From Carnegiea gigantea (Eukaryota > Streptophyta > Magnoliopsida > Caryophyllales > Cactaceae): 64,000 bases of DNA. Below the pieces are notes generated by a model, which made no database searches, was not told where the DNA came from, and saw only the letters and a program-made list of their open reading frames with translations. The stretch lies in contig JAKOGI010000109.1 of NCBI GenBank assembly GCA_029747015.1, positions 496,001 through 560,000 on the forward strand, written 5' to 3'. Numbering within the stretch: the first letter of the stretch is position 1; each line of letters opens with the position of its first letter. Positions 5,958 through 28,360 of this stretch are shown piece by piece. A program made the translations under genes and the position numbers.

Positions 5958-6770
5958 TAAGTATGGTTGGAACCTGACTATATGACAATAGTTTTCAAAA
6001 ACTTCACCAGACAACAATTGAGCTAATTCCATGAAAAATTACCATCATCCCCCTCCCCCTCAAAAGAAAAAAAAAAAAAAAAAAATCCCTAAAACCGAAC
6101 GGGCCGACTTGATGCGTGAACAAGATTGGCCCACTATCGAAACAGCCCACTGTCTACTGTGCCAAACCCATCTCCTCGGCGTTGGCCCAAAACCAAACCC
6201 AAACCAAAACCCAAACCACTTGACTATCTCTCTTCCCCCTCCCCATTTTTGCCAGGCTTCACGTTTCGCGGCTTTTTAACTCTCCTTCCCCTCTCTGACT
6301 GTCTCCTCCTCCCCGACATCTTTTCGCTGTCAGTGTCAGGCTCTTTCTCAGCTCTACAAAAATGGCGATCACTCACCTTCTTCTCCTTCTCTCTCATATT
6401 TTTTAAGAACTCTACCAAAGTGTGACTATTCGCGGCTTGCTTTCACAGTTCAGGGGAGATTGCAACGTGAATTGCTCCTTCTGGTAAATACTTTTAGGTT
6501 TTTTTCTTTCCTGCTTTTGAATATCCTTTGCATTTTCCCGCTATTTATATTACTCTGAGTTTGAATTTTTCACTTTCTTGCCATATTTTGCAGTTCACAT
6601 AAGTGTGTGTTTGGTGCTACATCTCCAGTTAGTTATATTTTGATTCGAGCATGCGATCACATCTTCTTCCACAGCACTTAATCGATGTTTATTGTAAAAC
6701 CTAGTCCTGTGTCGATCGATGTTTGCAAGTTCATAGAGGTCTCGCAGGACTTAATATGGTTCTTGTAAAA
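5958..6770. other. Promoter-like or 5'-UTR-like spacer before the snRNA cluster
   Basis: It holds an A-tract near 6070, a pyrimidine-rich stretch (6220-6360) resembling a plant 5' UTR, and a GGTAAATA sequence at about 6483 that could be a splice donor. A short repeat (GTAAAACCTAGTCC) occurs near 6696 and again near 6764. No coding exon can be followed from it. Confidence 0.3.
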
Positions 6771-6774
6771 CCTA

Positions 6775-6817
6775 GTCCCACATTTCTGTTTTACGAAGCG
6801 TGTTTGTTATTTATATA
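6775..6817 (+). promoter_or_regulatory. U6-type Pol III promoter (USE + TATA)
   Basis: GTCCCACATTT at 6775-6785 matches the plant upstream sequence element RTCCCACATCG at 9 of 11 positions. TTTATATA at 6810-6817 is the TATA box. The 24-bp gap is the Pol III spacing known for plant U6 genes; Pol II snRNA genes use about one helical turn more. If the hAT element at 6826-7592 is removed, the TATA box falls about 30 bp before the U6 homology, the normal distance to the start. Confidence 0.75.
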
Positions 6818-6825
6818 GCTACAGA

Positions 6826-7592
6826 TAGGGCTGGCAATAAAACCTGTACTCGTTTAAAACCCGCAAAACCCGCCCCGATGGGTATGGGTACGATTTTTTT
6901 TTTTGAAAATGGGTATGGGGCGGGTATTGCTAAACGGGTATGGGTATGGGTATGGGTATGGGTTCCACCCGCCCCGTACCCGCCCCATAGCCATTTTACT
7001 AGTACCCACCCTGTATACCCTTACCCATTTTCATTTTTTATAAAATTAAAATTGGCCCAAGCCCAAAAACAAAACCCTAAGTATAAAGTTCTCTCTCACT
7101 CGGTCACTCCTGACTCTACTCGTCCCACTCCTCGTTTCATCCTCCCCAGCTCTTGGATTCTCCTAGCTAGTTACATTGTGGTTTCTCACAAAGGCCGTGT
7201 GTTAGCTTGGTTTTTCTTAAAGTTTTACGTGAGTTCTTGAGTATATTGGCATATACACTAGGAAGCTTCTAGTTGTGGATGTTCTAAGAATAATAATAGT
7301 CTTATACTTTTATGTGATATGATGTATTGTTGGAAATCGGAAGTCTAATATGAATGTAGCGTGTTTCCTTCTTTGGTTGAATATGGGTATAAAATGGGTT
7401 CAATTTTTTTTGTCTATATATACCCGAATAAAACCCGCAATACCCGCAATACTCGGTGGGTATGGGTATGGGTATGATTTTATAATACTCGGTGGGTATG
7501 GGTATGGGTATGGGTATGAGTACTGATTTTTCAAATGGGTATGGGTAAGGGTATGACAAAATCCGCCCGTACCCGCCCCATTGCCAACCCTA
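6826..7592. mobile_element. hAT-type MITE with GGGTAT minisatellite
   Basis: The ends are TAGGGCTGGCAAT (left) and ATTGCCAACCCTA (right), a hAT-type inverted repeat with one mismatch. Perfect 8-bp target duplications GCTACAGA flank it at 6818-6825 and 7593-7600. Both subterminal regions carry tandem GGGTAT and ACCCGCCCC arrays (6930-6962 and 7455-7520), which is why long but meaningless tyrosine/proline-rich frames appear. No transposase is encoded. The insertion separates a U6 promoter from its transcribed region. Confidence 0.9.
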
Positions 7593-7605
7593 GCTACAGA
7601 AGAGG

Positions 7606-7684
7606 GTCTTTGTGATACAGAGAAGATTAGCATGGCCCCTGCGCAAGGGCGACATGCACAAATCGAGGAATGGTCCAAATTTTT
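7606..7684 (+). ncRNA. U6 snRNA-like gene lacking the 5' stem-loop
   Basis: From GATACAGAGAAGATTAGC at 7614 to the T-run at 7680-7684 the sequence matches plant U6 almost base for base. It includes the ACAGAGA box that pairs with the 5' splice site, the AGC triad and the 3' GGTCCAAATTTTT end that also terminates Pol III. About 30 nt of the normal 5' end (5' stem-loop and the segment before GATACAG) are missing; only a GTC near 7606 recalls the canonical start. One small change, GGGCGACATGC for GGATGACACGC, lies in the U4/U2-pairing region. With the hAT element removed, the promoter would start transcription close to 7614. As it stands the promoter is about 775 bp too far away, so the copy is probably silent. 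Confidence 0.8.
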
Positions 7685-7689
7685 GCTGT

Positions 7690-9490
7690 ACTTCAGTGAG
7701 CAATGTAAGAATTTATCTTTCAAGACTTTCCATTAGTGGCAAATCTTCTCAGGTTTTACCCTACTGTTTTATTGTAGCTCTATGGAGCTCCCAAAAGTCA
7801 TTGAAGCCTTTGCTCAAAGAGCCGCGAGTTGGCTCCATTTGTTAGCCTTCCATGTCTTTGTTGAGTGCAAATAAAGCATGAAGCAAATTTACACCCTAGT
7901 TGTTGTATACCTTCAAAGACTTTCATTGCTGTGGCTTGTTAATGGTGATCATTTATTGTCCAGGTAACCTGTTTTGTCATTTTCCAGTTCTTCCTTTCAT
8001 GCACTTGCTTTACCAACACCCCCACCCCCCCGGTGTTTGGTCAATGTGGTATATGGAGCCCATCTTGAAAGGAAAGTATTTTGACAACAATCCTATTTGA
8101 ATACTAGCTAATGGGCTGTATTGATTCTTGCAGGTTGGATTCACAACTATTGGTTCTCTGGGCATATTGAAGTTGAAACGAAACAACCAAGCCATTGAAA
8201 CATCTCAATTGTTCAAGCCAGCATGCTAGTGCCATCTGAATGTGAAGCTATGGTACAATGGTACTTGGCTTCAGCTACAATTAAAATGAACGGATATATA
8301 TTTACGTTTCAAACTTGGCCTTCCTTTTGTAAAATTTATGTCTGTCTAAGTGCCCCTAACCTAGACCAAGATTACCCGACAGTGTCTCAGTTACATAGCT
8401 GCAAATATGGAATCAATTAATATATTTTATTGTACTTTTGTGATGCAGAGTCTTGGAAAGTTAACATAAGAACTCGATCCTGACATCTTCCACACTGGTT
8501 CTTATTGATGTAGGAAGAAGTTGGTAACGCAGCAGACGCATGTCAGAAGAAGCTATCGGTACATTACCCTATAGGTCCATCGAGGTAGCTAAGCTAATTA
8601 TGCTACTCAATTTTTGATGAGTTTGGTTTCTGAGTCTTGATGATGCTGTGATTAGACATCAAAAGTGCTGTGACGCTTTATCCAATCACGCTAACTACTA
8701 ATGTGGGATTACATTAGTAACTTGCTTGTGGGTCTGGGATCATTTGACGTGAAGGATACTTCTGCAGATGTCCTGTGTAATGTGAGTATGTGACTGAGAA
8801 GTGAGAACTGAGAAGTGCAAAGCAATTCCAACACCATTTTAGTGGCGTCTGATAAATTTGAAATGTCAATGAATCTGTGTAATGCACCTATGCTTGCAGA
8901 CACTTCTTGTTTACTTCAAGAGTCAAGAGAGTTCATGATTACCTGTCTATACGGGATTTTTGTATAACATAGACATCTCTCTTTGGAGGGGCTTAGGTTT
9001 CATTACCTTTGAATCTCATCAATTATCCTTTGGTGGGACTTATACTGTTGTTTGTTGTTGTGACTCTGCCATTGTTGAGAAAATTCCCACTTGACGATTG
9101 GTTTGTGTGATGCTTGAGGGCACTAGATGTTGTGCCAAACTGATTCTTTATCTCAGATTTGAAATGTCAATGAATCTTGTCTCATGTACATAGGACCATG
9201 TTAATGATGAGCTAAACTTTGATGAAGCCCTTAGATCAGATAGTCCTGCCCCCTGCCAAGTAGAAAAAATCCAGAAAGATAGTACTGCTTATGGCTTTTC
9301 CATCCTGTCCAAAGTTACGTTTCTGTAGACATTGGAATGGTTTAAGAAATTTCTGGGCATCAACTCTTCATTTGCTTATAATTCCTGACATTGAATTTTC
9401 TCATTTGCATGATCAGATGACAAAATTTTAAATTTGTTCCGTCCTTCTCTTCCAGTTTGAAATTAAAAACTAAGATTAAGACAGTTATAA
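7690..9490. other. Duplicated host DNA, copy A, with exon-like debris
   Basis: The part from about 8035 to 8900 recurs, diverged, at about 27440-28260. The shared order includes GGTCAATGTGGTAT, a segment around an acceptor-like TTGCAG near 8130, GAAGAAGTTGGT near 8515 and GGATACTTCTGCAGATGTCC near 8753. Acceptor-like sites followed by short open stretches suggest exons of a decayed gene, but no protein family is recognised. GGTCAATGTGGTAT is also the (reverse-strand) upstream element of the U1 copy at 27382. Confidence 0.5.
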
Positions 9491-9501: not shown

Positions 9502-9664
9502 TAAGGGGCCGCGCAAACACAGGCCCCCACTGCCACAAATTATGACATACGCTCTCCCACTTTGGGGAGACATTAGACAGGCACACCTCGTAAAGTACAA
9601 TAGAAGCCACCTACCAAGGCCATGAGCATTCTTGATCGTGCATTGACCCTCTCCAGGTAAGTTT
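9502..9664 (-). ncRNA. U1 snRNA gene or recent pseudogene (copy 1)
   Basis: Read on the minus strand, the 163-nt sequence starts AAACTTACCTGG (consensus ATACTTACCTGG), so the ACTTACCTG that pairs with 5' splice sites is intact. Stem-loop I carries GATCAAGAA, as U1-70K-binding loops do. The U1A-binding loop is ATTGTAC instead of ATTGCAC. The Sm site AATTTGTGG lies near 9535, followed by the GC-rich 3' stem ending GCGGCCCC. U1 forms the U1 snRNP that defines 5' splice sites. Position 2 and several stem positions differ from the remembered plant consensus, so it may be a variant or a young pseudogene. It is convergent with the upstream U6 and divergent from the downstream U2 genes. Confidence 0.85.
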
Positions 9665-9738: not shown

Positions 9739-9744
9739 TGGAGT

Positions 9745-11144: not shown

Positions 11145-11197
11145 CTCCCGCATCGAAAGGCAAAAAAGACGAGGCTGAGATGGCGAAGACATAAATA
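11145..11197 (+). promoter_or_regulatory. Pol II snRNA promoter of U2 copy 1
   Basis: CTCCCGCATCG at 11145-11155 is a 9-of-11 match to the plant USE, and ATAAATA at 11191-11197 is the TATA box. The 35-bp gap is the Pol II class spacing, and the TATA box is 30 bp before the U2 start. Confidence 0.65.
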
Positions 11198-11220
11198 GAG
11201 GTATGTGAGAGTAAACAAAG

Positions 11221-11421
11221 CGTACCTTTTTCGGTCTTTTAGCTAAGATCAAGTGTAGTATTTGTTTTTATTGGTTTAATATCTGATATGCAGGTTATTG
11301 ATCTACAATGATATTAAATTAATTTTTTGAAGGGAGAAGGGTCCATCACAGCAGCTTGCTGCTGAGGCCCTTGAGCGTTGCTCATGGCTTGCTCTACTAC
11401 ATGGGCCTGGTGCACCCCACC
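11221..11421 (+). ncRNA. U2 snRNA-like gene, copy 1 (diverged)
   Basis: The 201-nt sequence follows plant U2 from TACCTTTTTCGG to GCACCCCACC. The GTGTAGTAT branch-site recognition segment is intact. The Sm-type run AATTTTTTGA and the CAGCAGCTTGCTGCTG hairpin are present. Relative to copy 2 it has more changes (TCGGTCTTTTAGC for TCGGCCTTTTGGC, GAAGGGAGAAGGG for GAGGGGGGAGGG). Several changes in stem IIb are compensatory or G-U wobbles. U2 pairs with the intron branch site. It is either a variant gene or an ageing pseudogene. Confidence 0.82.
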
Positions 11422-12295: not shown

Positions 12296-12348
12296 CTCCC
12301 GCATCGAAAGGCAAAAAAGACGAGGCTGAGATGGCGAAGACATAAATA
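12296..12348 (+). promoter_or_regulatory. Pol II snRNA promoter of U2 copy 2
   Basis: CTCCCGCATCG at 12296-12306 and ATAAATA at 12342-12348, 35 bp apart and 31 bp before the RNA start. It is identical in layout to the promoter of copy 1 because both belong to the tandem duplication. Confidence 0.65.
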
Positions 12349-12372: not shown

Positions 12373-12571
12373 ATATTTTTCTCGGCCTTTTGGCTAAGAT
12401 CAAGTGTAGTATCTGTTTTTTTCAGTTTAATATCTGATATGCGGGTTATTGACCCACAATGATATTAAGTTAATTTTTTGAGGGGGGAGGGTCCATCACA
12501 GCAGCTTGCTGCTGAGGCCCTTCAGCGTCGCCCATGTCTTGCATTACTGCAGGGGCCTGGCGCACCCCACC
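12373..12571 (+). ncRNA. U2 snRNA gene, copy 2 (better conserved)
   Basis: The 199-nt sequence matches plant U2 closely. CTCGGCCTTTTGGCTAAGAT and the AAGTGTAGTATCTGTT block, which pairs with U6 and the branch site, are intact. The CAGTTTAATATCTGATATG block, the Sm-region run AATTTTTTGAGG and the 3' stem-loops ending GGCGCACCCCACC are all present. The 5' end reads ATATTTTTCTCGG instead of ATACCTTTCTCGG. Stem IIb shows a C:G to U:A double change. Of the snRNA copies here this is the most likely to make a usable RNA. Confidence 0.88.
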
Positions 12572-13051: not shown

Positions 13052-13095
13052 ATCCTATATCTGAGTTTTCTGGAAGAATTGTTCATTTTATATGG
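13052..13095 (+). promoter_or_regulatory. Remnant U6-type promoter of U6 copy 2
   Basis: ATCCTATATCT (13052-13062) matches the USE at 8 of 11 positions, and TTTATATG (13087 on) is TATA-like. The gap is again 24 bp and the TATA box is about 30 bp before the U6 homology. The correct spacing despite decayed bases supports descent from a real U6 promoter. Confidence 0.5.
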
Positions 13096-13115
13096 AGGGG
13101 AATAGTAGTTTGGTA

Positions 13116-13217
13116 ATCTCCTTGGATATGTGCGATAACATTGGAATGATGCAGTGGAGATTAGCATGGCCCCTGCACAAGGATGACACACAAACTGAGA
13201 AACGGTCCAGTTTTTTT
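13116..13217 (+). pseudogene. U6 snRNA pseudogene, full length
   Basis: The match to U6 begins near 13116 and runs through CGATAACATTGGAAT, ATTAGCATGGCCCCTGC and AAGGATGACAC to GGTCCAGTTTTTTT. The T7 run at 13211-13217 is a Pol III terminator. The essential ACAGAGA box reads GCAGTGGA and the 5' stem-loop is degraded, so a functional spliceosomal U6 is unlikely. Unlike copy 1 it keeps the 5' part of the RNA. Confidence 0.82.
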
Positions 13218-14461
13218 AAAACTCTTCTTTTCTTCTCTTTTTGGGTTTCCTGTAAGATTTTTTTGGTGAAGAGAGGGAGGGTGTGCTTGCGAAGTGAGTC
13301 TGCCATAGTTTCTTTTGAGTTTCTTTTTGGTGAGGCGACAGAAGTGTTTGTGACATTGTGAGTTTGCTAGTTGCAGAACTATTGTTTTAAGTAATGCAAG
13401 AACATTGATGTACGGGTAATCCTTAGAGGTTGGGTGTTTTGGCTTATGTTGATCCCGTACCTCAGGGCAATGAGTTGATCCAGCAATGCATAAGGCACCA
13501 GAACTCTAAAGACTTTTCTGATGAGGCTGGACTCTGACTGAAGAGGTATACAGAACTTGCTATCTACCGCTGCTTTCTTGTGCCATAAATCCATATTCAT
13601 ACACTCCGTCATGACGACTGAGGCAAGTCATCTCCATGCTTTGATTGTATCATGAAAAAGTGGTCTAACCGATGCTCATAAGCACCTCAGAATTAGGATG
13701 AATTGTGAGTTGGCTTGAACTGATGCCATCTCCATGCTTTGATTGTATCATCTTTTGTGGCATTATTTTTATTCTCTGGTAGCCGTCTGGATTATACATG
13801 ATATTTGTTTTCCTCGTCTGTGCTATACTGCTATTAACCCTGGACGAGATCATAGTTTTTGATTTACACTGAAGTATATTATGGTGTATAAGTCTGTGAG
13901 ACTTTTGAGACCTTTCATGCGCATTGCTGAGTTAGATTTGTCTGAACCCACTTCACCATAAACCTCTGCTAGAAAAAGGCGCGTGTTTGAAGCAGTGGAA
14001 GCGACGGAGTTCTCTGAGATGATTTCCATACAAGTTTTGGACATGAACTTTGCCATATCATGACATCGTGGCGTTCCGTGACATGTATGGCGTTCCCACG
14101 TGCCAAGTTTAGCACGTCATAGGCCATGGCTGAGGCCTGATTGTGCCAAGAGAGAGCTACTTCCTTCTCTGTTTTGTCCTTTCAGTCATAATGTACAGTG
14201 TGCTTTGAATGACTTCCCTCTTTCGTTCTTACATCCTAACTTTGAGCTTTGAATGTCCCTATCATCATAGCAGACTCTGGATGAAACATTTCTTGCTACA
14301 AGAATCTAATTTTTGTTTTCATGATAGTCCGGCTGCAAGCCTGATTGTTTTCCTTAACAAAATGGAACATTGTTCTTTAACCTAAAACCTTGCCCCACAC
14401 ATTGACTTCTGAGTTCTGAGTATCTATTTGCTGGAAGCATGTAAAAAACTTGTTTCATTTT
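13218..14461. other. Spacer between U6 copy 2 and U1 copy 2
   Basis: No gene is supported. A short repeat, ATCTCCATGCTTTGATTGTATCAT, occurs at about 13630 and again at about 13728. A C-rich to A-rich transition and short frames are not informative. Confidence 0.35.
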
Positions 14462-14585: not shown

Positions 14586-14589
14586 GGAA

Positions 14590-14663
14590 TAGGGGCTGCG
14601 CAAATGTAGGCCCCTACTGCCATAAATTATGACGTACGCTCTCCCATTTTGAAGAGACGTTAG
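14590..14663 (-). pseudogene. U1 snRNA copy 2, 3' half
   Basis: On the minus strand this is the second half of a U1 gene: the GGGAGAGCGTACGTCATAAT segment, Sm site AATTTATGG (consensus AATTTGTGG) and the terminal stem ending GCGCAGCCCC. It is cut at 14663 by the 12.6-kb insertion; the 5' half resumes at 27279. The final 8 bp GACGTTAG are the left target duplication. Confidence 0.85.
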
Positions 14664-14799
14664 TAGGGGTGTTCATTTCTCAGTCTTAGGACCGGATCGA
14701 AGAAAAGCTTTTTTGTTTTATATGTAAAGATTACGTTATAGTCTTGTGGAATTGCAATTCTTTTGCAACTTACCTTAAGGTGTTAGGTTCAATCATTCT

Positions 14800-15150
14800 T
14801 CTTCATCAGCACCCTATGTTATTTGAGAATCATTAACGTTCATATTTGGTTGCATCCAAACTATGTATTCAAAAGTTACTTTTAAAAGAGCAATATTATC
14901 TTTTAATAAATTTATAGTTATGGGATGAACTTGTTTGGGTATAGTTGATAAATAATTTAATCTGTTTTTATAGTGATTTACATGTTTTGTCTAATTCTTC
15001 TAGGAGTTAAATCAAAAGATTTGGTAAATTAAAACTTTATCATGCTAAATAGTTACCATCTTTATCTACCTTAGAGTTCGATTGTAATTTGTTTTTATAT
15101 AAAGTCATGGTTTATGAATGACCCTATCCTTGTAAATACTTTGTTCAAGG
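14800..15150 (-). pseudogene. Start of caulimovirid ORF1, left copy (decayed)
   Basis: This region is the inverted counterpart of the 26812-27087 frame and follows the primer-binding site on the minus strand. Stops and small deletions break it. Function unknown; in the family the first ORF after the leader usually encodes structural or movement proteins. Confidence 0.55.
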
Positions 15151-15153
15151 TTT

Positions 15154-15167
15154 AGGCTCTGATACCA
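15154..15167 (-). promoter_or_regulatory. tRNA-Met primer-binding site, left copy
   Basis: The minus strand reads TGGTATCAGAGCCT, the 12-nt complement of the initiator tRNA-Met 3' end plus CT, where caulimovirid minus-strand DNA synthesis begins. It lies between the viral leader and ORF1 as expected. Confidence 0.85.
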
Positions 15168-15511
15168 TTTAATAGTGAGTCGAGTGGTTTTTATGAAAAA
15201 AGCGGTAAAACCATTGGTTGAATTAGTTAGGTGATTCACATAAAGAGATCTATCAAATTTTAACAACGGTACTCGGATACTAGATTATCAAATGAAACTT
15301 TAAACTTAATGTTAGATAATCCTATTAAAACAAGATAGAATCAAAGAAATTGTACCTTTAAGAGTTGGATCTGTCTTACTCCACCCTAACGCGAGATTTA
15401 CCTACTCGTTCAGACCTTCTCCTTGATCTTGATAGTACTTTCTCTTTGATCAGAGTTGTAATAACAGAATTATAGACACAAAGTTTTGAGAAAAGATTTC
15501 TCTTTTATTTC

Positions 15512-17915: not shown

Positions 17916-18677
17916 TCATGTTCTTGTAACATAAGTAATTTCAACTAAATGAATGGAATGGTAAATAGTATCTTCATGCTTTTCAGGAGAGATAGTAAAG
18001 ATTCGAAGGCAAATATGTCCTTGGCTGAATTGCTTAATAGCATGTTTAAAGTTGGCTGGGAAATTTTTTAGTTCAATGAGACTGCTTGGGTAAAGATAAT
18101 TTAAATAGCCATAAGTAAAGAGTTCAGAAATGATATCAGGGTTGACTCTGGTGAAAGCAAGGATTCTGGGAAAAAGAGAGTCCCTTGGATTATAGTAGAG
18201 TTCAGGTAAACCAGAGATCTTCTGATAAGCCAGCACAGTCGTTTCATAATAGTTCTTGTAAAAAGAGTCCGATAGATCAAGAGTTCGCATGCCAGTGTTT
18301 TGAATAACTGGTCTTGAAGCTAATAATTTAGCTTTTAATTGTTGCTTCTCTTTCTCTTCTTCAGAGAGGGAGTTTGAAACATTTTCCTGATTTGGTCGAA
18401 ATGAGAGTTCAGAGTAGACTTTAGTCAAATCCGCCTTGGAAGAGTTCAAAGAGTTCAACTTGAACTGTTCAATAGTTCGATGGAAATATGTTATTAGTTC
18501 TCGAACTTTTCCAAGATCAGCTCTGAGATCTTCAACAATTTCTTTGTTAACTTCAATTTTTTCATTAACAGTTTCATAGTCTTCGTTAACATTTATAAGA
18601 ATGTCTTCAAAGTTCTGGATTAGCTGGGTGCTGTTCACTTGTTCCATTGGTGCTTTGTCTTTGTCCGTTGAACTCAT
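17916..18677 (-). pseudogene. Caulimovirid ORF after RNase H (transactivator position)
   Basis: A 253-residue frame starting MSSTDKDKAPMEQ overlaps the RNase H frame by 71 bp, as short overlaps between viral ORFs do. An N-terminal charged, probably coiled-coil part (about residues 10-90) is followed by a globular part with LDLSDSFYKNYYE and RILAFTRVNPD. In caulimovirids with this gene order the ORF in this position encodes the translation transactivator/inclusion-body protein, but I see no decisive motif, so the assignment rests on position. It is the longest open ORF of the integrated copy. Confidence 0.6.
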
Positions 18678-19107
18678 GTTCTCTTATTAAATAATATGCA
18701 ATAAAGTTGTTCTTCCTTGCAACATGCTCATATACGGCATTAAACTGAGATAAAAATAGCCGCCAACGATGTAATTTACGCATGTGAAGTCCATTGTCTA
18801 AAGCTTGTTTTACAAAGGTAGTTGCTGCTTGAGTATCTGTTAATACTTTAAATGGCTTTGGTAATAAAAAGAGTCTCCATTTAGTAATTTCTCTAATAAT
18901 GGCTAATAGTTTCTTTTCCATAGTATTATAATTTTCTTTACGTTCAGAAAAAGTTTCACTGTGATCACCACAAATTTTATTTAAATATGTCTTTAAAACT
19001 GCTGCCCATGTTTTGTCAGATGCGTCTGTTTGAAGAATTAAATTATCTTCAGGTTTTGGAAGTCTAAGACTGGGAAGTTGTTGACATCCTTCCTTTAATT
19101 TTTTCAC
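18607..19107 (-). pseudogene. Caulimovirid RNase H domain
   Basis: A 166-residue frame with LQTDASDKTWAAVL (first catalytic Asp), ENYNTMEKKLLAI (catalytic Glu) and LTDTQAATTFV (third acidic position), then KLHRWRLFLSQF. This is the caulimovirid/Ty3 type of RNase H, which removes pregenomic RNA during reverse transcription. It lies downstream of the RT but in a separated frame: about 130 bp between 19107 and 19234 carry stops. Confidence 0.8.
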
Positions 19108-19233
19108 AATTTCTGTATGTTTTTCTGTCCAACCAAGAGTATTGTTTTATCTGAGTAGGCTTTGCAAATCTTTTTTCTTCTTTGCTTAGTCTGGTATATA
19201 AGAACTAGCATAGTTTAATAGTCCTAAGAAACC

Positions 19234-19923
19234 TTAAATTTGTTTCTTTGTTCGCAGTTGGTCTGGATATTCCATGATTTTTCTAGAGATATGAGGTCGT
19301 AAGCTGATTCCATTTGTGCCAACTTCAAATCCTAAGAATTTAATTTTCTCTTTTTCAATTACAGCTTTTTTCTCACTTAGGCAAATGTCTTCTTTAATAA
19401 CTGTTTCCAGAAATGTGTTGAAATGTACTTGATGTTCTTCAAGAGTGTCTGAACTTATTAAAATGTCATCTACATAGACTACAAGAAAACTGTTAAGGTG
19501 TTTAAAGGCATTGTCCATTTTTCGTTGAAAAATTTTTGCTGCATTTTTTAGTCCAAATGGCATAACAACCCATTCATAAAATCCTTGAGGTGTACTAAAA
19601 CCTGTATATTTAATACTTGTTTCTTTCATTTTAATTTGTCAAAAGCCAGATTTGCAGTCAAATTTTGAGAAGAATTTTTTGTTTTTTACAAGGTTAATTA
19701 ATACTTCTTTGTTGGGTAAGAAATAGTTATATATTTTTGTAAACTGATTTAGTTTTTTATAATTGATAACCATTCGGGTTTTGCCTCTTCGTCTTTCTGC
19801 TTCGTTAATTACCATAAAGGCTGGTGAAGAGTCTGCTCCATTGGATGGTCTAATTAGTCCTTTTTCAAGTTGTTCTTTTATTTGTATTAAAAATTCCTTG
19901 ATATCTTCTTCAGAGTATAACAT
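19234..19923 (-). pseudogene. Caulimovirid reverse transcriptase, one internal stop
   Basis: Two frames in the same phase (19639-19923 and 19234-19629) are separated by a stop after FSKFDCKSGF. Together they hold the RT fingers (RMVINYKKLN), the palm (PFGLKNA, then catalytic YVDDILI near 19470) and LGFEVGTNG. The conserved Asp of motif A (FDCKSG) is present. The polymerase copies pregenomic RNA into DNA. The stop and the later frame break inactivate it. Confidence 0.88.
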
Positions 19924-19992
19924 TGGTTTTTCTTTGATATAAATTTTCTGTGTTAGTTCTATCTTAGCTCGAAGATGTTCAGGTTTTCAAAA

Positions 19993-20541
19993 CTACAATA
20001 GATTTTCAGAACAAATTCGTTTGAGTTTTGCTAAAAGGTCATCTTTTTTGATTATATGAACTATAAAAGTAGGTTTTTGTGTTTGCATTTGTAGTGCAAT
20101 TTGTTCATAACCATGTCCACTATGCTTCGCGCGCACTCTGTAGGGTTGTTTTAGAGTGGGAATTTTTAAAGTGTGACCACATTTGGTAGTTAAGTAAACA
20201 GTATAAGGAGTTTGTGTAAACTTAGCAAACTGTTTTAAGAAATCATTGCCTAATAAAATATCATAACCAGAGTTATATTGTAATACTGTGGGTATTGTCA
20301 GGATTTTGTTTCCCAGAATAATGGAAACATTGTTCTGAACTAAATCCAAATAGGTAGGAATAGGATGGACACCTTTGATTATAATTTTACGATCATTTAG
20401 GAGCTTATCCCATTGTGGAAGTAAAAAGTCTTGAAAGAAAGTTACTTCGGATCCTGTGTCAATCAAAGCAGTGGTAGTAATATCTAAGTCTTTGATAGTT
20501 ATATCTATGTAAGTAAGAATAGGTATTTCAAGTTGCTTCAT
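19993..20541 (-). pseudogene. Caulimovirid aspartic protease
   Basis: A 182-residue frame with TTTALIDTGSEVTFF, the D-T-G active-site motif of a retropepsin, followed by a hydrophobic ILLGNDFL block typical of the family. It would cut the viral polyprotein. It is open over its length but separated by stops from the RT, which normally follows in the same polyprotein. Confidence 0.75.
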
Positions 20542-20585
20542 AAGTGTTCAAAAATGATGGTAGTGTGTTGATTTAAAAGGGTGAT

Positions 20586-20819
20586 CTAAGTAGGACGAAT
20601 CTCATAGTTGGCATATTGAACAAGAAAATTCATTCCTAAGAGTACATGGTGGAATTCGTTTTTAATTGAATGATCGATATAGCAATCAAATTCCAATAGT
20701 GTAGACTGAGGAGTTTTCATCATGATTCGAGAGATTTGATTTACAGTTGCTTTCTGACCATTGTAGGTAACAAGGTTATATTCCGATGTTGTTGAGACTG
20801 CGATGCGTAAGGTATACAA
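20586..20819 (-). pseudogene. Small caulimovirid fragment before the protease
   Basis: A 77-residue frame ending in HHVLLGMNFLVQYANYEIRPT. The LLGMNFL motif resembles the ILLGNDFL block of the neighbouring protease, which suggests a duplicated or degenerate protease-like fold without a visible DTG. Function unknown. Confidence 0.4.
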
Positions 20820-21067
20820 TGATTTTGTGATGCTCCTGTATCTATAAGGATTTTATTAGAGATCCATGTTTATCCATTAAAATAGTCCAATTTTACCTTG
20901 TAGGTGCTAGTAAGCTTAGTTGTTAATAATGGAGGTGTAAACCTGGATATAGTTGCTGTACTATAACTTCATGTTAAAACAGGTTGATTGGCTACTCTTA
21001 TTCCTTTTTTAGTATAAGAAAGCTTAGGTGCTTGATAGCTAGTTGATGCTTCATTTTCTTCAACTAA

Positions 21068-21829
21068 TTAAAAGTCTGTTAATGCAGGTATTTTGGCTTT
21101 TTGCATAGGAGGAGAAATAATAGTACTGATGGTTGAAAAGATTGGATCGACAGTTATTTTTTCTGTTTGTTTTACATCTTTTATTGGAAAGTTAGGATTT
21201 GAAAAAATATATAATCCTCTATAATAAAAGGATAAGGCATCATTTCTTGATTGTAATCCAATGTTTGTTAAGAGTTTAAATTGCAAATTTAAAGTATCCT
21301 CTATATTTTTACTTTGCAGAGTAACAGAATAATTCGGATAACATTCAAAGATTAATTTTTTATAAATTAGATTACTTTGTAATGTTCCCAGATGGCTATT
21401 CTGTATATTTCGGAATCTTTGATCATATAATGATAGAATAATAGGTGAAATAATACCTTCTTTGAAGCAAGCATTTACAGCAATTTGTATTCCTTGTAAA
21501 TGGACGTACTTAATTAGCTTTCTGTCTTTAGTAGGAATTTCTGCTAAAAATTCATCAATTATGTCTTGAGTCATTAATCTTAACCGGATATTTTCCTGTA
21601 AATGTTGAATTTTAACAGGTTGTTCTGTAGTATAGAGCTTAAAATATTCTATTAATTTTCGAGTTAGAAGATCATCTAGTTTTTTCATAAAATTTCGAGG
21701 ATCTTTTAGAGATAATTCAGTTGCTATAATTTCTTCATAAATTTTTTGGTTGAAAGTAATTATTCCAGTATAATTTTCATGATTTTCTTGTCCTTGTTGT
21801 TGAATAATTTCTGTTTCTTCAGTATTCAT
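21068..21829 (-). pseudogene. Caulimovirid movement protein
   Basis: A 253-residue frame with KYVHLQGIQIAVNACFKEG, ISPIILSLYDQRF, LGTLQSNLIYKKLIFECYP and YYRGLYIFSN. This block order is that of the 30K-type caulimovirid movement protein, which lines plasmodesmata for virion passage. The frame is intact here although its neighbours are broken. It lies after the coat-protein region and before the protease. Confidence 0.75.
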
Positions 21830-21839
21830 CTTCTGTATC

Positions 21840-23169
21840 TAAAGAACTTTTTGTTTCTGATGTACTTGTTTCAGTTTCTGAACTAATAGATTCATAACAA
21901 CTCAAAATTGCTTCATGTATATTAGTAGTTATTGGATAAAGTTCATCTTGAATTTCTTCAAATTCTTCTGAAAAGAGTTTTACTATATTTGCTTTTCTTT
22001 TGTTACAGTCAATAGATTTATGTCCTATTTCTCCACAATTCCAACATTGACAAGCAGTAGGTTTTTTATTTCTTTTATAATATCTATTCTGTGAGTTAAG
22101 GTTCTCTTGAGTTAAATTTTCGTGTCAAAAATATTTACTACTTTTTTGTGGTTTATTAACTGATTTTTCAGTATTTGTTTTTTCAGTCTTTGTTCTTTTA
22201 GTTGAAAATTTCTTCTTTTTAGAGAATTTTTTCTTTGGGGTTTTTCTAGGAGTAGTTTTCTTGGTATTCTGTTTTAAAGTTCTTTTTCTTTTAGGTCTAA
22301 AATTTGGATAATTTTCACAGTCATATTGTCCTGACTCTTTTACATCTTCACAGTAAAGAGTTACTTCTTTAATATATCTTCTTCTACTTTCTTGTAAACA
22401 AAGTTCCATCATTTCTTTGTTTATTAGAGTCTGAACTGCTACTACTGATCTAAAAATAGAAGGATGTTTTGCATATACTTCAAACTTGTCTGAAAAGTAT
22501 TTATTCCAAGGGTAAGGAAATTTATTTAGTAAAAGTTGGATATAAGGCTCTTGATTTTCCGTAGAATCATAAAGCTCATAGTAGTATTTTTTAAATTCAC
22601 AAAAGAAACTCTTATAGTTGCATAAGTTACAAATTCTTAAATTGGTAAGTTTGTATAAAGCTTCTTTTTTCCTTCTAGTCTGTTTAATTCTGGATTTTCA
22701 ATAAATTCGTATCCTTGAAATTATCTAATCAATATTTTTCAAAGGTCCAAACTCCATGTTCGATGGAAGTTTCAAGATTTCTTTTTACATCTACTTCTAT
22801 TAAATTTCTTAGTGCTAGAGATATTCCACTATACCAATTTAGTACATTTCCTTGCAAAGAGTAGATGATTAAATTATAGACAGCATTAACATCTCTGTCT
22901 TCCGCAGCGTAAGTTGGTTCTTGTATTAAAGATAGTATTAGAGAGCTTCTCCAAGTGTGTAAAGCTGCTCTTTTATCAGTTACACAGTCTATATTTAAAA
23001 AATATCCCCATGCAGGTACTGGTTCTAAAAGAAAAGAATTTTTTTGTTTAAATTCTTCATTGATAGTGCTCTTTCTTATGAAAGGTCTTTTCTTATTTAA
23101 AGTTCGCTGTATGTTTATTTTTATGGATTGAATTAGTTCTAAAAGGGTTAGAAGGCTCCCCAGTTTCAT
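21840..23169 (-). pseudogene. Caulimovirid coat-protein region with CCHC zinc knuckle
   Basis: The frame at 22729-23169 carries LHTWRSSLILSL, the EDRDVNAVYNLIIYSLQGN block and NWYSG. Further on, a very basic stretch (22130-22290, lysine-rich) is followed by CWNCGEIGHKSIDC at about 22006-22054, a C-X2-C-X4-H-X4-C knuckle, and then an acidic Ser/Glu-rich tail. Basic stretch plus knuckle is the caulimovirid capsid signature for packaging RNA. Frames change between the blocks. Confidence 0.7.
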
Positions 23170-23960
23170 AATTATTTGGATTGTTACTTCCTACACTTCC
23201 TGTGGGTGTTCCTGCTTGCATGTTTACTTATTTTACTAGTTCAGTTAATTGAAGATTTTCAAAATCATTTAACAATTCTTCAATAACTTTATTATATTCT
23301 CCCATTATTGGCTACTTTCTGCTTCTTCTTGTTTTTCTTTGGCTTTTAGTAATCTTCTTTCTTCAATAGTTTTTTGAATAGTTTCTTCTTATTCTTTTAA
23401 AATGTTATTCTGATAACGTTCAATATATTTAGCATCATCACTGTTGGGATTGACTTTGTCGAAAAGTTTAATTTCTATAAGAGTATATTCTCTTTTTTGT
23501 TTGGATTTTAACATTTCTTCAAAAGTTAAATTTATAAGTTACATCTGCATTACTGGTTGTTTAATAGAGTTATTTATTTCTCTAATTTTTTCTTTTACAG
23601 CTTTTAGTTCATTTTCTAGTTGTGAAAAGCTCATTATTTATTAATCCTCATCATTAAACTAAAATTCTGTATCAAACTGATCTAAGTTGTTATTATCATT
23701 GTTATATAAATTTTTACAAATTTCTAGATATGTTCTTCTTTCTTCTTCATTAATTAAAAGGTTTAGTCTATCTTCATTTAACCAAATTACTTCTTTAGAG
23801 CTGTTATTTTTTCTTAATTATTCAATTTTTTATATATAAAATTTTTCTTTTTGTATTATTTCTTTTTTTTCCGAAAAAGTTTTACACAAGTTGAGAACAG
23901 ATTCAAACTTTCTTTGAGTCATTATTTTGAGTTTGGGTATTTCAAGTTTATCCATTCCGC
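23170..23960 (-). pseudogene. N-terminal viral ORF remnants
   Basis: Short fragments of charged, probably coiled-coil protein can be read in shifting frames, starting near 23955 with MDKLEIPKLKIMTQRKFESV. They precede the coat-protein region in the viral sense. Too broken for a functional assignment. Confidence 0.45.
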
Positions 23961-24116
23961 TAAAAATTTTACTCAATTAAATAGATTTTTATTAGTCGGT
24001 TAATTATAATAATTATTTTTAATTCAAAAAACAAACAATTTCTTTTGTTTTGACATAAATATTTTAGTAATTGTAACATATCTGTGTCCCTATACATGCC
24101 TTCATCAAGTTCTAGC

Positions 24117-24246
24117 TCAAATTTTATAGCATTTACGCTTAAGGTAGTATGGAAGGACTAGGCAAGCAATTTTGGCAAACTTTGAGGACTAAAGAACAAA
24201 ACTACCTTTTACACAAAAATTTAAGCGTAAATGCTATAAAATTTGA
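24117..24246. repeat. 26-bp perfect inverted repeat at the junction of the two viral copies
   Basis: TCAAATTTTATAGCATTTAC at 24117 continues to 24142, and its exact complement occupies 24221-24246, with a 78-bp loop. A second short inverted pair, AAGGTAGT/ACTACCTT, lies just inside. The unit may be a small foldback MITE or the breakpoint where the two viral copies were joined. No target duplication is evident. Confidence 0.75.
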
Positions 24247-24253
24247 AAAAAAA

Positions 24254-24569
24254 TGTAATTGAAAAAGAGAAAATTGAATTTTTAGGATTTGAAGTTGGCA
24301 CAAATGGAATCAACTTACAACCTCATATCTCTAGAAAAATTATGGAATATCCAGACCGACTACGAACAAAGAAACAAATTCAAGGTTTTTTAGGACTATT
24401 AAATTATACTAGTTCTTATATACCAGACTTAGCAAAGAAGAAAAAAAGATTTGCAAAGCCTACTCAGAAAAAACAATACTCTTGGTTGGATAGAAAAACA
24501 TACAGAAATTGTGAAAAAATTAAAAGAAGAATGTCAACAACTTCCCAGTCTTACACTTCCAAAACCTAA
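24254..24569 (+). pseudogene. 3' part of viral RT, right copy
   Basis: Contains LGFEVGTNGINLQPHISRKIM and the QGFLGLLNYTSSYIPDL block, the connection region after the YVDD motif, which is itself absent. It breaks before the RNase H. Confidence 0.8.
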
Positions 24570-24620
24570 GATAATTTAATTCTTCAAATAGACGCATCTG
24601 ACAAAACATGGGCTGCAGTT

Positions 24621-25010
24621 TTGAAGACAGATTTAAATAAAATTTGTAGTCATCACAGCGGAACTTTTTCTGAACGTGAAGAAAATTATAATACTATGAA
24701 AAAGGAACTATTAGCCATTATTAGAGAAATTACTAAATGGAGACTCTTTTTATTACCAAAGCCATTTAAAGTATTAACAGATAATCAAGCAGCAACTACC
24801 TTTATAAAACAAGCTTTAGACAATAGACCTCACATGCATAAATTACATCGTTGGCGGCTATTTTTATCTCAGTTTAATGCTGTATATGAGCATGTTGTAG
24901 GGAAGAACAACTTTATTGCATATTATTTAATAAGAGAACATGAGTTCAACGGACAAAGACAAAGCACCAATGGAACAAGTGAACAGCACCCGGCTAATCC
25001 AGAACTTTGA
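24621..25010 (+). pseudogene. Viral RNase H, right copy
   Basis: Same domain as at 18607-19107, with ENYNTMKKELLAI and LTDNQAATTFI. The start of the domain (the ASDKTWAAVL block) is upstream at about 24590, broken by a stop. Confidence 0.8.
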
Positions 25011-25740
25011 AGACATTCTTATAAATGTTAACGAATATTGTGAAGCTATTAATGAAAAATTGAAATTATTGAAGAAATTGTTGGAGATCTCAGAGTTGAT
25101 CTTGGAAAAGTTCGAGAACTAACAACATATTTCCATCGAACTATTGAACAGTTCAAGTTGAACTCTTTGAACTCTTCCAAGGTGGATTTGACTAAAGTCC
25201 ACTCTGAACTCTCTGAACCCTCATTTCGACCAAATCAGGGAAACGCTTTAAACCCCCTCTCTGAAAAAGAGAGAGCGAAGCAACAATTAAAAGTTAAGCT
25301 ATTAGCTTCAAGACCAGTTATTCAAAACACTGGCATTCGAACTCTTGATCTATCGGACTCTTTTTACAAGAACTATTATGAAGCAACTGTGCTAGTTTAC
25401 CAGAAGATCGCTGGTTTACCTGAACTCTACTATAATCTAATGGACTCTCTTTTTTTCAGAATCCTTGCTTTTACCAGAGCCATTCTTTACTTATGGCTAT
25501 TTAAATTATCCTTACCCAAGCACCAATCTCATTGAACTACAAAATTTTCCAACCAACTTTAAACATGCTATTAAGCAATTCAGCCAAGGACATATTTGCC
25601 TTCGAATCTTTACTATCTCTCCTGAAAAGGATGAAGTAACTATTTACCATTCCATTCATTTAGTTGAAATTACCCATGTTACAAGAACAGGATCAACTAC
25701 AAAACTCTCTACTATTGTAGCAGAGAAAAATAAACACTAA
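24940..25740 (+). pseudogene. Viral downstream ORF, right copy (frameshifted)
   Basis: Begins MSSTDKDKAPMEQ as in the left copy and overlaps the RNase H in the same way. At least two frame changes (near 25120 and 25470) split it. The KLSTIVAEKNKH end is readable here. Confidence 0.6.
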
Positions 25741-26731
25741 CAAAACTCCTCATTTTGACAAAGGATGGATCAATTATAGACGTTTAACAGGCGCTCTCGC
25801 CATCAAATGCCAAAGCGAGCGTTTAATGACTAAAGGAGCCAAAACTCTGTACTCTGATAAAAATCTCATTCTAATCACTACTGAAGGAGCTGAAAACATC
25901 TCAGTCGATGAACAACTTTTTGACTTTACCTATGCACTGGAGCCCAAGAAATTTCTAGGCAACCTAACTGTACGTACCAAATTTGCTGAACTTTATAAAG
26001 CAGAGCAAGACAAGGCACAAAAACAGATTTTTCTCACCTAGTCATCATGTGAAGACACAAGGGGCCACAACATTATCAACTCTTATCTCTACCAACACAA
26101 CACGACAAGGAACATAGAGCAGCCTTATCAAGAACAGTGAAGCGTTATCTTTTAGCCAGAAAATCTTATCTTTTAGTCAGAAAATCTTATCTTTTAAGAT
26201 TCCCTATGATGTAAGCGCTTATGTCATAGCGCACCCCCTCCTCTATAAATAAGTTAGTCGATTTTAACAGAGACATCGGCATTTGTAAAAAGAAATTTCC
26301 CTCTGTACAATGTCTCTCTAAAAGTATTCTGATTTCCTTCCCTTAGGGAAAGGAGAACAATTATCAATGAAATAAAAGAGAAATTTTTTCTCAAAATTTT
26401 GTGTCTATAATTCTGTTATTACAACTCTGATCAAAGTGAAAGTACTATCAAGGAGAAGGAGAAGGTCTGAACGAGTAGGTTAGTCTCGCATCAGGGTGGA
26501 GTAAGACGGGCGCAAAGGAGTAAGATAGATCCAACTTTTGAAGGTATAATTTCTTTGATTCAATCTTGTTTTAATAGGATTATCTGACATTAAATTTAAA
26601 GTTTCATTTGATAATCTAGTATCCCAGTACTGTTGTTAAAATTTGATAAATCTCTTTGTGTGAATCATCTAACTAATTCAACCAATGGTTTTACCGCTTT
26701 TTCCATAAAAACCACTCGACTCACCATTAAA

Positions 26732-26745
26732 TAGTATCAGAGCCT
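26732..26745 (+). promoter_or_regulatory. tRNA-Met primer-binding site, right copy
   Basis: TAGTATCAGAGCCT, one base different from the canonical TGGTATCAGAGC in the left copy. It lies between leader and ORF1. Confidence 0.75.
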
Positions 26746-26811
26746 AGACGTTGAACAAAGTATTTACAACGATAGGGTCACTCGTAAACTATTGCTTTAT
26801 ATAAAAACATA

Positions 26812-27087
26812 TTGCAATCGAACTCTAGGGTAGATAGAGATGGTAACTATTTAGTAGGACAAAGTTTTAATTTATCCAAATTAGAATATTATACGCAAGA
26901 AAGAGTATGGAACTATCTAAGACCTTTTGATTTAACTCCTAGAAGAATTAGACAAAACATGTTAAATCACTATAAAAACAGATTAAATTATCTATCAACT
27001 ATACCCGAACGAGTTCATCCCATAACTATAAATTTATTAAAAAATAATACTGCTCTTTTAGAAGTAACTTTTGAATATACAGTTTGA
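26812..27087 (+). pseudogene. ORF1 start, right copy
   Basis: A 91-residue frame with LSKLEYYTQERVWNYL and IRQNMLNHYKNRLNYL follows the primer site. The same protein is decayed in the left copy. Family unknown; it is basic and probably helical. Confidence 0.5.
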
Positions 27088-27278
27088 ATGCAACCAAATG
27101 TGAACATGAATTATTCTGAAATACAGAGCTGAAAAAAGAATAATTGAATCTAACACCTTAAGGTAAGTTGCAAAAGAATTACAATTCCACAGGACTATGA
27201 AATACTCTTTACATATAAAACAAAAAAAACAAAACTTTTCTCCGGTCCAATTCTAAAAACAAGAAATGAGCACCCCTA

Positions 27279-27382
27279 GACATTAGGCAGGCACAGCTCC
27301 CAACTGCAATGGAAGCCACCTACCTAGGACATGGCCCTTCAGCCCCTTCTTGATCACCCATCAACCCCGTCCACGTAAGTAT
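27279..27382 (-). pseudogene. U1 snRNA copy 2, 5' half
   Basis: The minus strand starts ATACTTACGTGGACGGGG, then GATGGGTGATCAAGAAGG, and continues to the U1A-loop region (CCATTGCAG). Position 8 of U1 is G instead of C, which disrupts pairing with the 5' splice site. The rest of the RNA is at 14590-14663, 12.6 kb away. Without the insertion the RNA would be about 170 nt. Confidence 0.88.
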
Positions 27383-27404
27383 GTTCCATAGGTGCCCGTA
27401 TATT

Positions 27405-27456
27405 CCTTTTATATACTTGTTTTACAACCCCCTGTTTTGTTCGGTCAATGTGGTAT
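27405..27456 (-). promoter_or_regulatory. Pol II snRNA promoter of U1 copy 2
   Basis: On the minus strand ATACCACATTG (plus 27446-27456) matches the USE at 9 of 11 positions and TATATAAAAGG (plus 27405-27415) is a strong TATA box. The gap is 30 bp, and the TATA box begins 33 bp before the U1 start at 27382. Confidence 0.7.
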
Positions 27457-27459
27457 TGG

Positions 27460-28360
27460 CAGCCCATCCTGAAAGGAAGCTATTTTGACTACTGCCTAAT
27501 TTGAATACTAGCTAATAGGCTGTGCATTGATTCTTGCGGGATGCATTCTTAACTACTAGATCCCCCGGGCATTGAATCCGAAATAAAACACCCAAGTCAT
27601 TGAAACATCTCAATTGTAATGCTATCTTAGTGTGAAGCTACGTTACTTGGATTCAGCTACAGTTTCTGCAAACGGATATATATCTAGGTTTCAAACGTGG
27701 CCTTCTTTTTCAATTTATGTCTTTTTGAGTGTCCCTAATCTTGTCCAAGTCTTGATTGGCTGAAACTTGTACGTGATGTGATAGCCGTTACATAAATGTA
27801 AATATAGAATCGGTTAAGATATTTTATTGTACTTCTGTGATGCACAATCTTGAAATGATAAATAAACACTTGATGCTGACATCTTTCACGCTGCTTGTTC
27901 TTGATTTAGGAAGAAGTTGGTGACACAACATACTCATGTTCACAAAACAGCTATTGGTACATCACCCGATAGTCTCTCTGGGGTAGCTAAGCTTATTAGT
28001 GGGCAACTTGTGATCAGTTTGGTTATTAAGTCTTGATCGATGTAGACATCAAAAGTCCTCTGGTGCTTTATCCAGTCATGGTACTAGTAGATACTAGTGT
28101 GTGAGTAGACCAGTAACATACTAATTGTTCTGGGATCATATTGCAGACTTACATGAAGGATACTTCTGCAGATGTCCTGCATAATGCGACTGAGAAGTGC
28201 AAAGCAATACCAACACCATTAGCTTATAAGGGCCTAGCACTTGCGTTAGCATTCTACTCGCAAAGTGCACTGTTGCATGAGTGTCTTGGCAAACTCTGCA
28301 AGGTTAGATGGCTGGATAGCTGACGCCCTTGCCTGGAGGTTTTGGAAAGCACATGTATGA
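27460..28360. other. Duplicated host DNA, copy B, with exon-like debris
   Basis: Collinear with copy A at 8035-8900. A 60-residue open stretch (28141-28323, with KDTSADVLHNATEKCKAIPT) lies after an acceptor-like TTGCAG; its counterpart in copy A is broken. I do not recognise the protein. It may be an exon of a gene that was duplicated together with the snRNA genes. Confidence 0.45.

Follow-up and report, generated by a model that had tools for sequence, protein, structure and literature searches.

The available part of the Arabidopsis gene survey (PMC545797) describes seven U1-U4 clusters and one U2-U5 cluster, besides one tandem each of U2 and U5. Here, we analysed a window of 64,000 nucleotides (the whole stretch of DNA under study) from Carnegiea gigantea. 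It contains one block with six copies of three splicing-RNA genes (U1, U2 and U6), mostly worn out. The initial annotation held that plant snRNA clusters usually combine fewer types, and the block does combine more of them than the Arabidopsis clusters in the consulted part of that survey.

Composition of the snRNA block

The block comprises the following features (coordinates of the window):

6324..6667, no strand: spacer remnant, of the kind preceding U6 in the C8 arrays; 78% to L039 2559-2805 and 85% to L039 7587-7685, the second of these situated between U2 and the U6 that follows
6775..6785, plus: USE of U6a, GTCCCACATTT, 9/11; TATA at 6810-6818
6826..7592, no strand: hAT-like insertion, 767 bp; TIR TAGGGCTGGCAAT / ATTGCCAACCCTA; TSD GCTACAGA at 6818-6825 and 7593-7600
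7614..7684, plus: U6a, reaching from about nt 33 of U6 as far as its T run, without the region of the 5' stem-loop
7940..9059, no strand: spacer A, common to C8 and C126 units
8042..8052, minus: relic USE, ATACCACATTG, 11 letters identical to the U1b USE
9502..9664, minus: U1a at full length, differing by 20 substitutions from the majority row built on 24 further U1 of the genome
9728..9738, minus: USE of U1a, GACCCACATCA, 9/11 at -74; TATA position reads TAGAAAA
10506..11538, no strand: first copy of the U2 tandem duplicate, 91.5% to 11648-12689
11145..11155, plus: USE of U2a, CTCCCGCATCG, 9/11 at -77; TATA-like CATAAAT at -32
11222..11420, plus: U2a, differing by 31 substitutions from the majority row built on 9 further U2 of the genome
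11648..12689, no strand: second copy of the U2 tandem duplicate
12296..12306, plus: USE of U2b, same as U2a USE
12373..12570, plus: U2b, the best preserved of the copies; 20 substitutions relative to the majority row used for U2a
13052..13062, plus: weak USE of U6b, ATCCTATATCT, 8/11; TATA TTTATAT 35 bp on
13114..13216, plus: U6b, full length; ACAGAGA box reads GCAGTGG
13437..14362, no strand: spacer pieces shared with C126 (L041 4689-4911 and 6696-7319, 72-82%), whose counterparts lie between U6 and U1 with U2 in between
14589..14663, minus: 3' half of U1b
14664..27278, no strand: hAT-like insertion, 12.6 kb (12,615 bp); TIR TAGGGGTGTTCAT / ATGAGCACCCCTA
27279..27382, minus: 5' half of U1b; USE 27446-27456 at -74, TATAAAA at -31
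27438..28220, no strand: spacer A', second copy, upstream of U1b

All six identities and strands first proposed (U6+, U1-, U2+, U2+, U6+, U1-) were recovered. Covariance-model scores exceeded the Rfam gathering cut-off at five of the six loci: U6a(+) matched at 7587-7684 with 65.8 bits (cut-off 44), U1a(-) at 9502-9664 with 103.7 bits (69.5), U2a(+) at 11222-11420 with 120.9 bits (46), U2b(+) at 12373-12570 with 151.3 bits (46) and U6b(+) at 13116-13216 with 73.4 bits (44). The second U1, U1b(-), appeared as two sub-gathering Rfam halves, found at relaxed threshold only. One matched at 14589-14709 (28.9 bits, E 0.002), its host part ending at 14663, and the other at 27218-27382 (31.5 bits, E 0.00036), its host part starting at 27279. 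These halves lie on either side of a single insertion (TSD GACGTTAG/GACATTAG), which cuts the gene in two. With the 767-bp and 12,615-bp insertions removed, about 7.2 kb separate the USE of U6a from the start of U1b.

The interleaving of Pol II and Pol III genes, also part of the initial annotation, was borne out, each copy having a promoter remnant spaced for its own polymerase. Measured start to start, the distance from USE to TATA is 43 bp in U1a (where the TATA is poor) and U1b and 45 bp in each of U2a and U2b, i.e. the spacing of about four helical turns characteristic of Pol II. The Pol III spacing is seen in U6a (35-37 bp by reading the listed sites, insertion left out) and in U6b (35 bp, its USE being below the motif cut-off), against a genomic U6 median of 36. 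Among genomic copies passing the motif cut-offs, the median was 43 for U1 (range 42-52, 14 of 18 copies), 42.5 for U2 (37-43, 6 of 10) and 36 for U6 (25-37, 15 of 30). This class-specific spacing, in block and genome alike, fits the rule that USE lies one helical turn nearer to TATA in Pol III snRNA genes, as given in the accessible part of PMC9845283. The U1 and U2 promoters of the window were not clearly inferior to those of high-scoring copies elsewhere in the genome. A perfect 3' box (CAN3-10AGTNNAA) was found in none of the four U1/U2 copies of the window and in just 3 of 28 other genomic copies tested.

Decay of the copies and the two insertions

U6a lacks about 32 nt at its 5' end and is separated from its own promoter by the 767-bp hAT-like element; its remaining 71 nt share 94.4% identity with a C8 U6 of 113.4 bits. 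Neither U6a nor U6b combines an intact 5' stem-loop with an ACAGAGA box, as expected of a functional U6 (for the role of this box, see the consulted part of PMC9803359). Both are probably dead, U6a without its 5' part and U6b with its altered ACAGAGA. As for U1a, its body differs from the C8/C126 counterparts by 16.0, 16.0 and 21.5%, and spacer A by 18.3, 19.0 and 16.5%; because the gene body diverges as fast as the spacer, U1a is probably a dead copy, i.e. a pseudogene. U1b, split by the 12.6-kb hAT-like insertion, is probably dead as well, and the match of the relic USE at 8042..8052 to that of U1b suggests that a U1, now lost, once lay near it. With at least four of the six copies (both U6, U1a and U1b) probably pseudogenes, the local cluster is mostly fossil. 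An excess of C>T changes was considered as a mark of silencing and rejected: it is not confined to window copies but occurs in high-scoring ones too, and is therefore no proof of silencing.

Short TIRs together with an 8-bp TSD are the signature of hAT elements, and from this combination both insertions are classed as hAT-like. The initial annotation had placed insertions in the block, and these two, of 767 and 12,615 bp, were confirmed by their TIRs and TSDs. In the larger one, the 8-bp TSD has one mismatch, caulimovirid-derived sequence lies in inverted arms, and the five ORFs scanned gave caulimovirid-type, RNase H or marginal matches. Both elements sit inside snRNA genes. Dada transposons, which target U6 and U1 genes, resemble them as DNA transposons inserted within snRNA genes; however, Dada elements have 6-7 bp TSDs and no TIRs, while the window insertions have 8-bp TSDs with TIRs (PMC3706591, consulted part, which also gives about 8 bp for hAT TSDs). 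A Dada-type site-specific insertion was rejected on account of these 8-bp TSDs and TIRs.

The cluster could also be read as still producing snRNA locally, at least from its U2 copies. This reading draws on U2b, which scores 151 bits and possesses USE and a TATA-like box, and on the U2a and U2b promoters, which are identical over 117 bp, the run stopping right at +1 (P 0.0004 if differences were scattered, for a feature picked after being seen). Selection on this promoter was rejected, however, as the identical stretch has diverged from C8 like its surroundings (21/116 vs 78/363 sites), which makes gene conversion the more likely cause of the identity. Moreover, U6b is without its ACAGAGA box, U6a without its 5' part, U1b is split and U1a evolves like spacer. 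We thus regard a working cluster as improbable, although U2b, and less likely U2a, may still be transcribed; a function of U2a is doubtful.

Origin of the block

Elsewhere in this genome, on contigs C8 and C126, the spacers of the block recur around U6(+)-U1(-)-U2(+) units. The homologous pieces keep their order relative to U6, U1 and U2 (C8: L039, L042, L028, L043; C126: L041, L045), at 72-90% per piece. The initial annotation had attributed the repeated blocks to tandem duplication. This stood for U2a and U2b (91.5% identity), which look like the only pair from a later local tandem duplication, but not for the block pair 8035/27440 (74.6% identity between 8034-8782 and 27438-28186). In a spacer tree of 9 copies, the 27437 copy grouped with C126 copy L041, and the 8034 copy joined C8 copies and a different C126 copy. 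From this, the block pair is older and the locus a fragment of a wider array family rather than a stand-alone expansion; a simple two-unit tandem duplication of the whole block is contradicted.

An origin of all six loci as separate retro-insertions (snRNA retropseudogenes) that gathered by chance would agree with the degenerate state of several copies, which score below the best genomic ones. However, USE- and TATA-like sites with class-specific spacing lie upstream of +1 in all six (weakest in U6b), and a copied RNA would bring no upstream promoter. The spacers are common to other snRNA clusters, direct repeats flanking U6a, U1a, U2a, U2b and U6b within 40 bp do not exceed 6 bp, and no poly(A) tail follows U6a, U2a, U2b or U6b or lies 3' of U1a or U1b. 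Retro-insertion with poly(A) and target duplications, which the initial annotation had named as counter-evidence, is thus highly implausible, and its proposal of DNA-level duplication is upheld by the promoter remnants and common spacers. An assembly artefact seems equally far-fetched. C478 and C688 do score alike at a fixed offset, which makes uncollapsed haplotypes probable; however, the duplicate blocks of the window differ by about 9-25% and the same snRNA types come together on several contigs.

The block is very probably a decayed segment of an old mixed U1/U2/U6 array multiplied at the DNA level, with U4/U5 linked separately. In the model we propose, the ancestral unit would be spacer-U6(+)-spacer A-U1(-)-U2(+), with a separate promoter for every gene, of Pol III type in U6 and of Pol II type in U1 and U2. 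Such units multiplied by tandem and segmental duplication of DNA, as the shared spacers show, presumably through unequal crossing-over. Other clusters (C217, C8 and C126) would have retained high-scoring copies, while the window segment would have largely lost function and taken two hAT-like insertions; genome-wide, U1, U2 and U6 would cluster together, with U4 and U5 as a separate linkage set. On C217, high-scoring U1 (145 bits), U2 (173) and U6 (113) all lie within 16 kb. In the C8 units nearest to the window, the U2 is a deleted copy of 58-62 bits (L028, L035-L037, L039, L050), so these units do not show three intact genes together. An earlier idea, that a C8 U2 is split by a U6-bearing insertion, was dropped: a separate deleted U2 is followed further on by another U2 copy, partly N. 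Gene order varies (U2-U6-U2-U1 on C126, mostly U1 on C478, U2 only on C1246), which makes a single ancestral unit a simplification.

Linkage sets in the genome and in known systems

The genome holds most detected U1 and U6 in mixed arrays, with U4 and U5 mostly elsewhere. Among the copies listed, which give lower bounds, 36 of 42 U1, 21 of 46 U2 and 41 of 48 U6 belong to clusters that combine two or all three of these types, and 5 of 11 U4 have a U5 no more than 1.3 kb away. Within 25 kb of the listed U6 there is no listed U4 or U5. The Arabidopsis-type U1-U4 and U2-U5 pairing was likewise not encountered among listed copies, apart from a single U2 (of 46) that has a U5 at most 25 kb away (C193); for U1 within 25 kb of U4, the count was 0/42. 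Eight of 46 U2 lie within 10 kb of a U1, against 0.034 expected for the 42 listed U1 placed at random over 1.13 Gb, so chance is no explanation of U1-U2 proximity. Unlike neighbour pairs numbered 46 within the sets and 2 across them, and 0 of 20,000 shuffles was as low, the repeated units not being independent. The family searches gave no matches in their 14 control genomes.

The window block is a decayed outlier of this two-set arrangement (U1+U2+U6 vs U4+U5), which is the interesting part, more than the block itself. It seems rather unlikely that the partition is kept by selection and is not a by-product of the duplication of one ancestral mixed unit; if it were, co-located promoters with the same USE could share a local pool of activating factors or a nuclear body. 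The genome offers a natural test of chromatin sharing by Pol II and Pol III genes that have their upstream element in common, of array homogenisation across gene types and of the turnover of linkage sets between plant lineages, and the window an example of how a mixed snRNA array dies. In titles and abstract openings, a search mostly outside subscription literature, we recognised no account of a plant with mixed U1/U2/U6 arrays, and the consulted part of PMC5758608 holds nothing on snRNA gene linkage.

The U3-U5 genes of Euglena (PMC2784804, consulted part) are similar in their repeated two-gene linkage, their families of spacer similarity and duplication as the explanation, but they concern other RNAs, two-gene units and a protist. 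The Arabidopsis clusters (PMC545797, available part) are likewise small groups that mix major snRNA types, have USE/TATA promoters, include pseudogenes and grew by duplication. That survey, as far as consulted, links different types only as U1-U4 or U2-U5, with which the mixed U1/U2/U6 clusters contrast: in Arabidopsis, U1 goes with U4 and once U2 with U5, whereas here U1, U2 and U6 go together, U4 lies beside U5, and clusters, which include Pol III genes, extend to about 190 kb when linked at 30 kb.

The mixed cluster and its insertions

The snRNA cluster in the window is genuine and of mixed types, and most of it is probably dead. When the 64-kb window was scanned with Rfam at the gathering threshold (the family cut-off), six matches were obtained, five snRNAs and one tRNA, and a relaxed threshold added the two halves of a further U1. 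By these scans and the insertion ends, the initial annotation was right about the six loci, their strands and the insertions.

Features of the cluster (window positions)
6826-7592, small element, 767 bp, TSD GCTACAGA
7587-7684, +, U6a, above gathering
9502-9664, -, U1a, above gathering
11222-11420, +, U2a, above gathering
12373-12570, +, U2b, above gathering
13116-13216, +, U6b, above gathering
14589-14663 and 27279-27382, -, host parts of U1b, each below gathering
14664-27278, large insertion, 12,615 bp, TIR TAGGGGTGTTCAT/ATGAGCACCCCTA, 8-bp TSD GACGTTAG/GACATTAG

The small element splits U6a off from its own promoter, and the U1b halves sit on either side of the large insertion. A 41-bp unit, present in three tandem copies at 14470-14592, repeats the U1b 3' flank, including AGTTATAACT of the presumed 3' box.

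The large insertion is a hAT-like element with an interior of inverted arms, 88-96% complementary. The caulimovirid-type fragments within it are what is left of an endogenous pararetrovirus, which the DNA transposon either carries or has received as a nested insertion. Elsewhere, a LINE-type remnant (222-3741) retains endonuclease, reverse-transcriptase (below cut-off) and zf-RVT pieces. Exons of a phytochelatin synthase gene occupy 32722-38246 on the minus strand, where ORF 32722-33315 matches Phytochelatin_C and ORF 37875-38246 resembles an N-terminal exon. The stretch 46681-49374 looks like a non-autonomous LTR element: its one ORF, a copia-type gag (47449-48804), lies between direct repeats with 89-96% similarity, located within 46681-47287 and 48749-49374.

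Other matches in the window
18610-19146, -, caulimovirid-type RNase H, inside the large insertion
19996-20547, -, caulimovirid-type Peptidase_A3, inside the large insertion
22128-22697, -, caulimovirid-type coat-domain match, exactly at its own cut-off, inside the large insertion
45157-45232, -, tRNA-Ile (AAT), Rfam match at 45158-45231 above gathering

Origin and state of the copies

In plants, the promoter of an snRNA gene combines a TATA box with an upstream sequence element (USE, RTCCCACATCG), and according to PMC9845283 the distance between them is one helical turn shorter in Pol III genes. For copies in the window's own assembly that reached at least 9/11 for the USE and 6/7 for the TATA box, we measured the distance from USE start to TATA start. 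Median spacing was 43 for U1 (range 42-52, 14/18 kept), 42.5 for U2 (37-43, 6/10) and 36 for U6 (25-37, 15/30), the U6 outliers being probably wrongly picked TATA sites. In the window, both U1 copies gave 43 and both U2 copies 45; U6b gave 35 with a USE of 8/11, under the cut-off, and U6a gave 35-37 with the insertion excluded, depending on the T chosen as box start. Because this spacing is class-specific, all six copies most likely descend from real genes of their own class and not from retro-copies, the case being weakest for U6b.

Most copies have probably decayed. The 71-nt U6a remnant, starting at about nucleotide 33, shares 94.4% identity with a 113.4-bit U6 on contig C8 of the same assembly; U6b shares 85.1% with that C8 copy across 87 columns and has GCAGTGG at the place of the expected ACAGAGA. 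Against the majority row of 24 other genomic U1 (loci L013, L014, L024, L032, L036 and L037 excluded), U1a had 20 substitutions and the reference rows themselves 6 to 22; against that of 9 other genomic U2, U2a had 31, U2b 20 and the reference rows 11 to 28. The U1a body differs by 16.0, 16.0 and 21.5% from counterparts on C8 (L028, L039) and C126 (L045), and spacer A (7940-9059, shared with units on both contigs) by 18.3, 19.0 and 16.5%, so that body versus spacer divergence from these three counterparts gives no sign of constraint on U1a. The two C8 copies differ from each other by 2.5% in the U1 body and 6.2% in spacer A. Judged by sequence, U6a, U6b, U1a and the split U1b are probably dead, and a functional state of U2a appears doubtful; U2b is not among the copies called dead. 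Most of the segment may have lost function before or along with the insertions.

Growth of the arrays

Comparison of the window with fetched loci by BLAST revealed spacer homology in the same order, at 72-90% per piece, near 1.89 and 1.96 Mb of C8 and 0.71 and 0.76 Mb of C126. The C8 order is U6+, spacer A, U1-, deleted U2+, spacer, U6+, and in the 1.89-Mb unit a weak U6 and another U2, masked in part, are interposed. The U2 in these units is a deletion copy (58-62 bits), which counts against their being complete working units. Window 6324-6667, ahead of U6a, matches the C8 spacer between U2 and the next U6. At gathering level, Rfam found U1, U2 and U6 and nothing else in the 67 fetched loci scanned out of 77 (all except L048, L049, L051-L054, L067, L068, L073 and L077).

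Growth by tandem duplication, as initially proposed from two pairs of blocks, holds for one of them. The U2a and U2b blocks are 91.5% identical over about 1.04 kb and appear to be the sole clear later local tandem duplication in the window. They differ at 35/612 upstream sites, 0/100 in the promoter, 25/198 in the body (12.6%) and 19/125 downstream (15.2%); 117 bp at 11105-11221 and 12256-12372 are identical, ending exactly at +1, and gene conversion may have acted on these promoters. As for the spacer-A blocks, in a midpoint-rooted tree of nine copies the one at 27437 (27438-28220) clusters with C126 copy L041 (support 96/97), and the one at 8034 falls with another C126 copy and C8 copies. 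From these groupings, the two blocks most likely diverged before, not by, local duplication.

The comparisons show that the genes have promoter sites of their own, spaced according to class, that the arrays share spacers, and that high-scoring copies occur on C8 for U1 and U6 and on C217 for all three types. The arrays could have grown through unequal crossing-over and segmental duplication, with each snRNA gene presumably transcribed independently.

Two sets of linked snRNA genes

The assembly containing the window (1.13 Gb, 5575 contigs) holds at least 46 U2, 42 U1, 48 U6, 28 U5 and 11 U4 listed loci; these are lower bounds, as the U1 list ends at 105 bits, thus without U1a, and the U6 list at 82 bits, thus without U6a and U6b. 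The same five family searches were positive in none of 14 control genomes. Clusters with at least two of U1, U2 and U6 (30-kb linkage) contained 36/42 listed U1, 21/46 U2 and 41/48 U6. A U1 lay within 10 kb of 23 of the 48 listed U6 (0.036 expected if scattered), and a U5 within 1.3 kb of 5 of the 11 listed U4 (0.001 expected within 2 kb), the other six having no listed U5 nearby. The U4-U5 pair recurs five times, about 1.0-1.3 kb apart, on C1292, C5, C511 and C193. Among listed loci, neither U6 nor U1 occurred within 25 kb of U4, nor U6 within 25 kb of U5. High-scoring copies of U1, U2 and U6 lie together at 265-281 kb of C217 (U1 145 bits, U2 173, U6 113).

Among listed loci, excluding C688, apparently a second haplotype of C478, 46 pairs of unlike neighbours fell within the sets {U1,U2,U6} and {U4,U5} and two across; when the labels were shuffled 20,000 times, the number across was never as low, although repeated units are not independent events. 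Of 15 mixed clusters, ten lay within {U1,U2,U6}, three within {U4,U5} and two across, the exceptions being C193 (U2, U4, U5) and C1152 (U1 and a weak U5 match). Single-type clusters also exist among listed loci (13 U2 only on C1246), and C478 holds 17 U1 and 4 U2. At C350:321098-347002, 13 listed U5 form a tandem array with no other listed type.

The window locus is valuable as a pointer to a genome-wide division of the snRNA genes into two sets, known here from one plant genome and meriting proper comparative study. Among the titles and abstract openings surveyed, which did not extend to older tomato, soybean and maize snRNA work, we recognised no report of such plant arrays. In Arabidopsis, PMC545797 describes seven U1-U4 clusters, one U2-U5 cluster, one U2 tandem and one U5 tandem. 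Compared with that account, the present genome links other types, at another scale, and places U6, a Pol III gene, among genes of Pol II.
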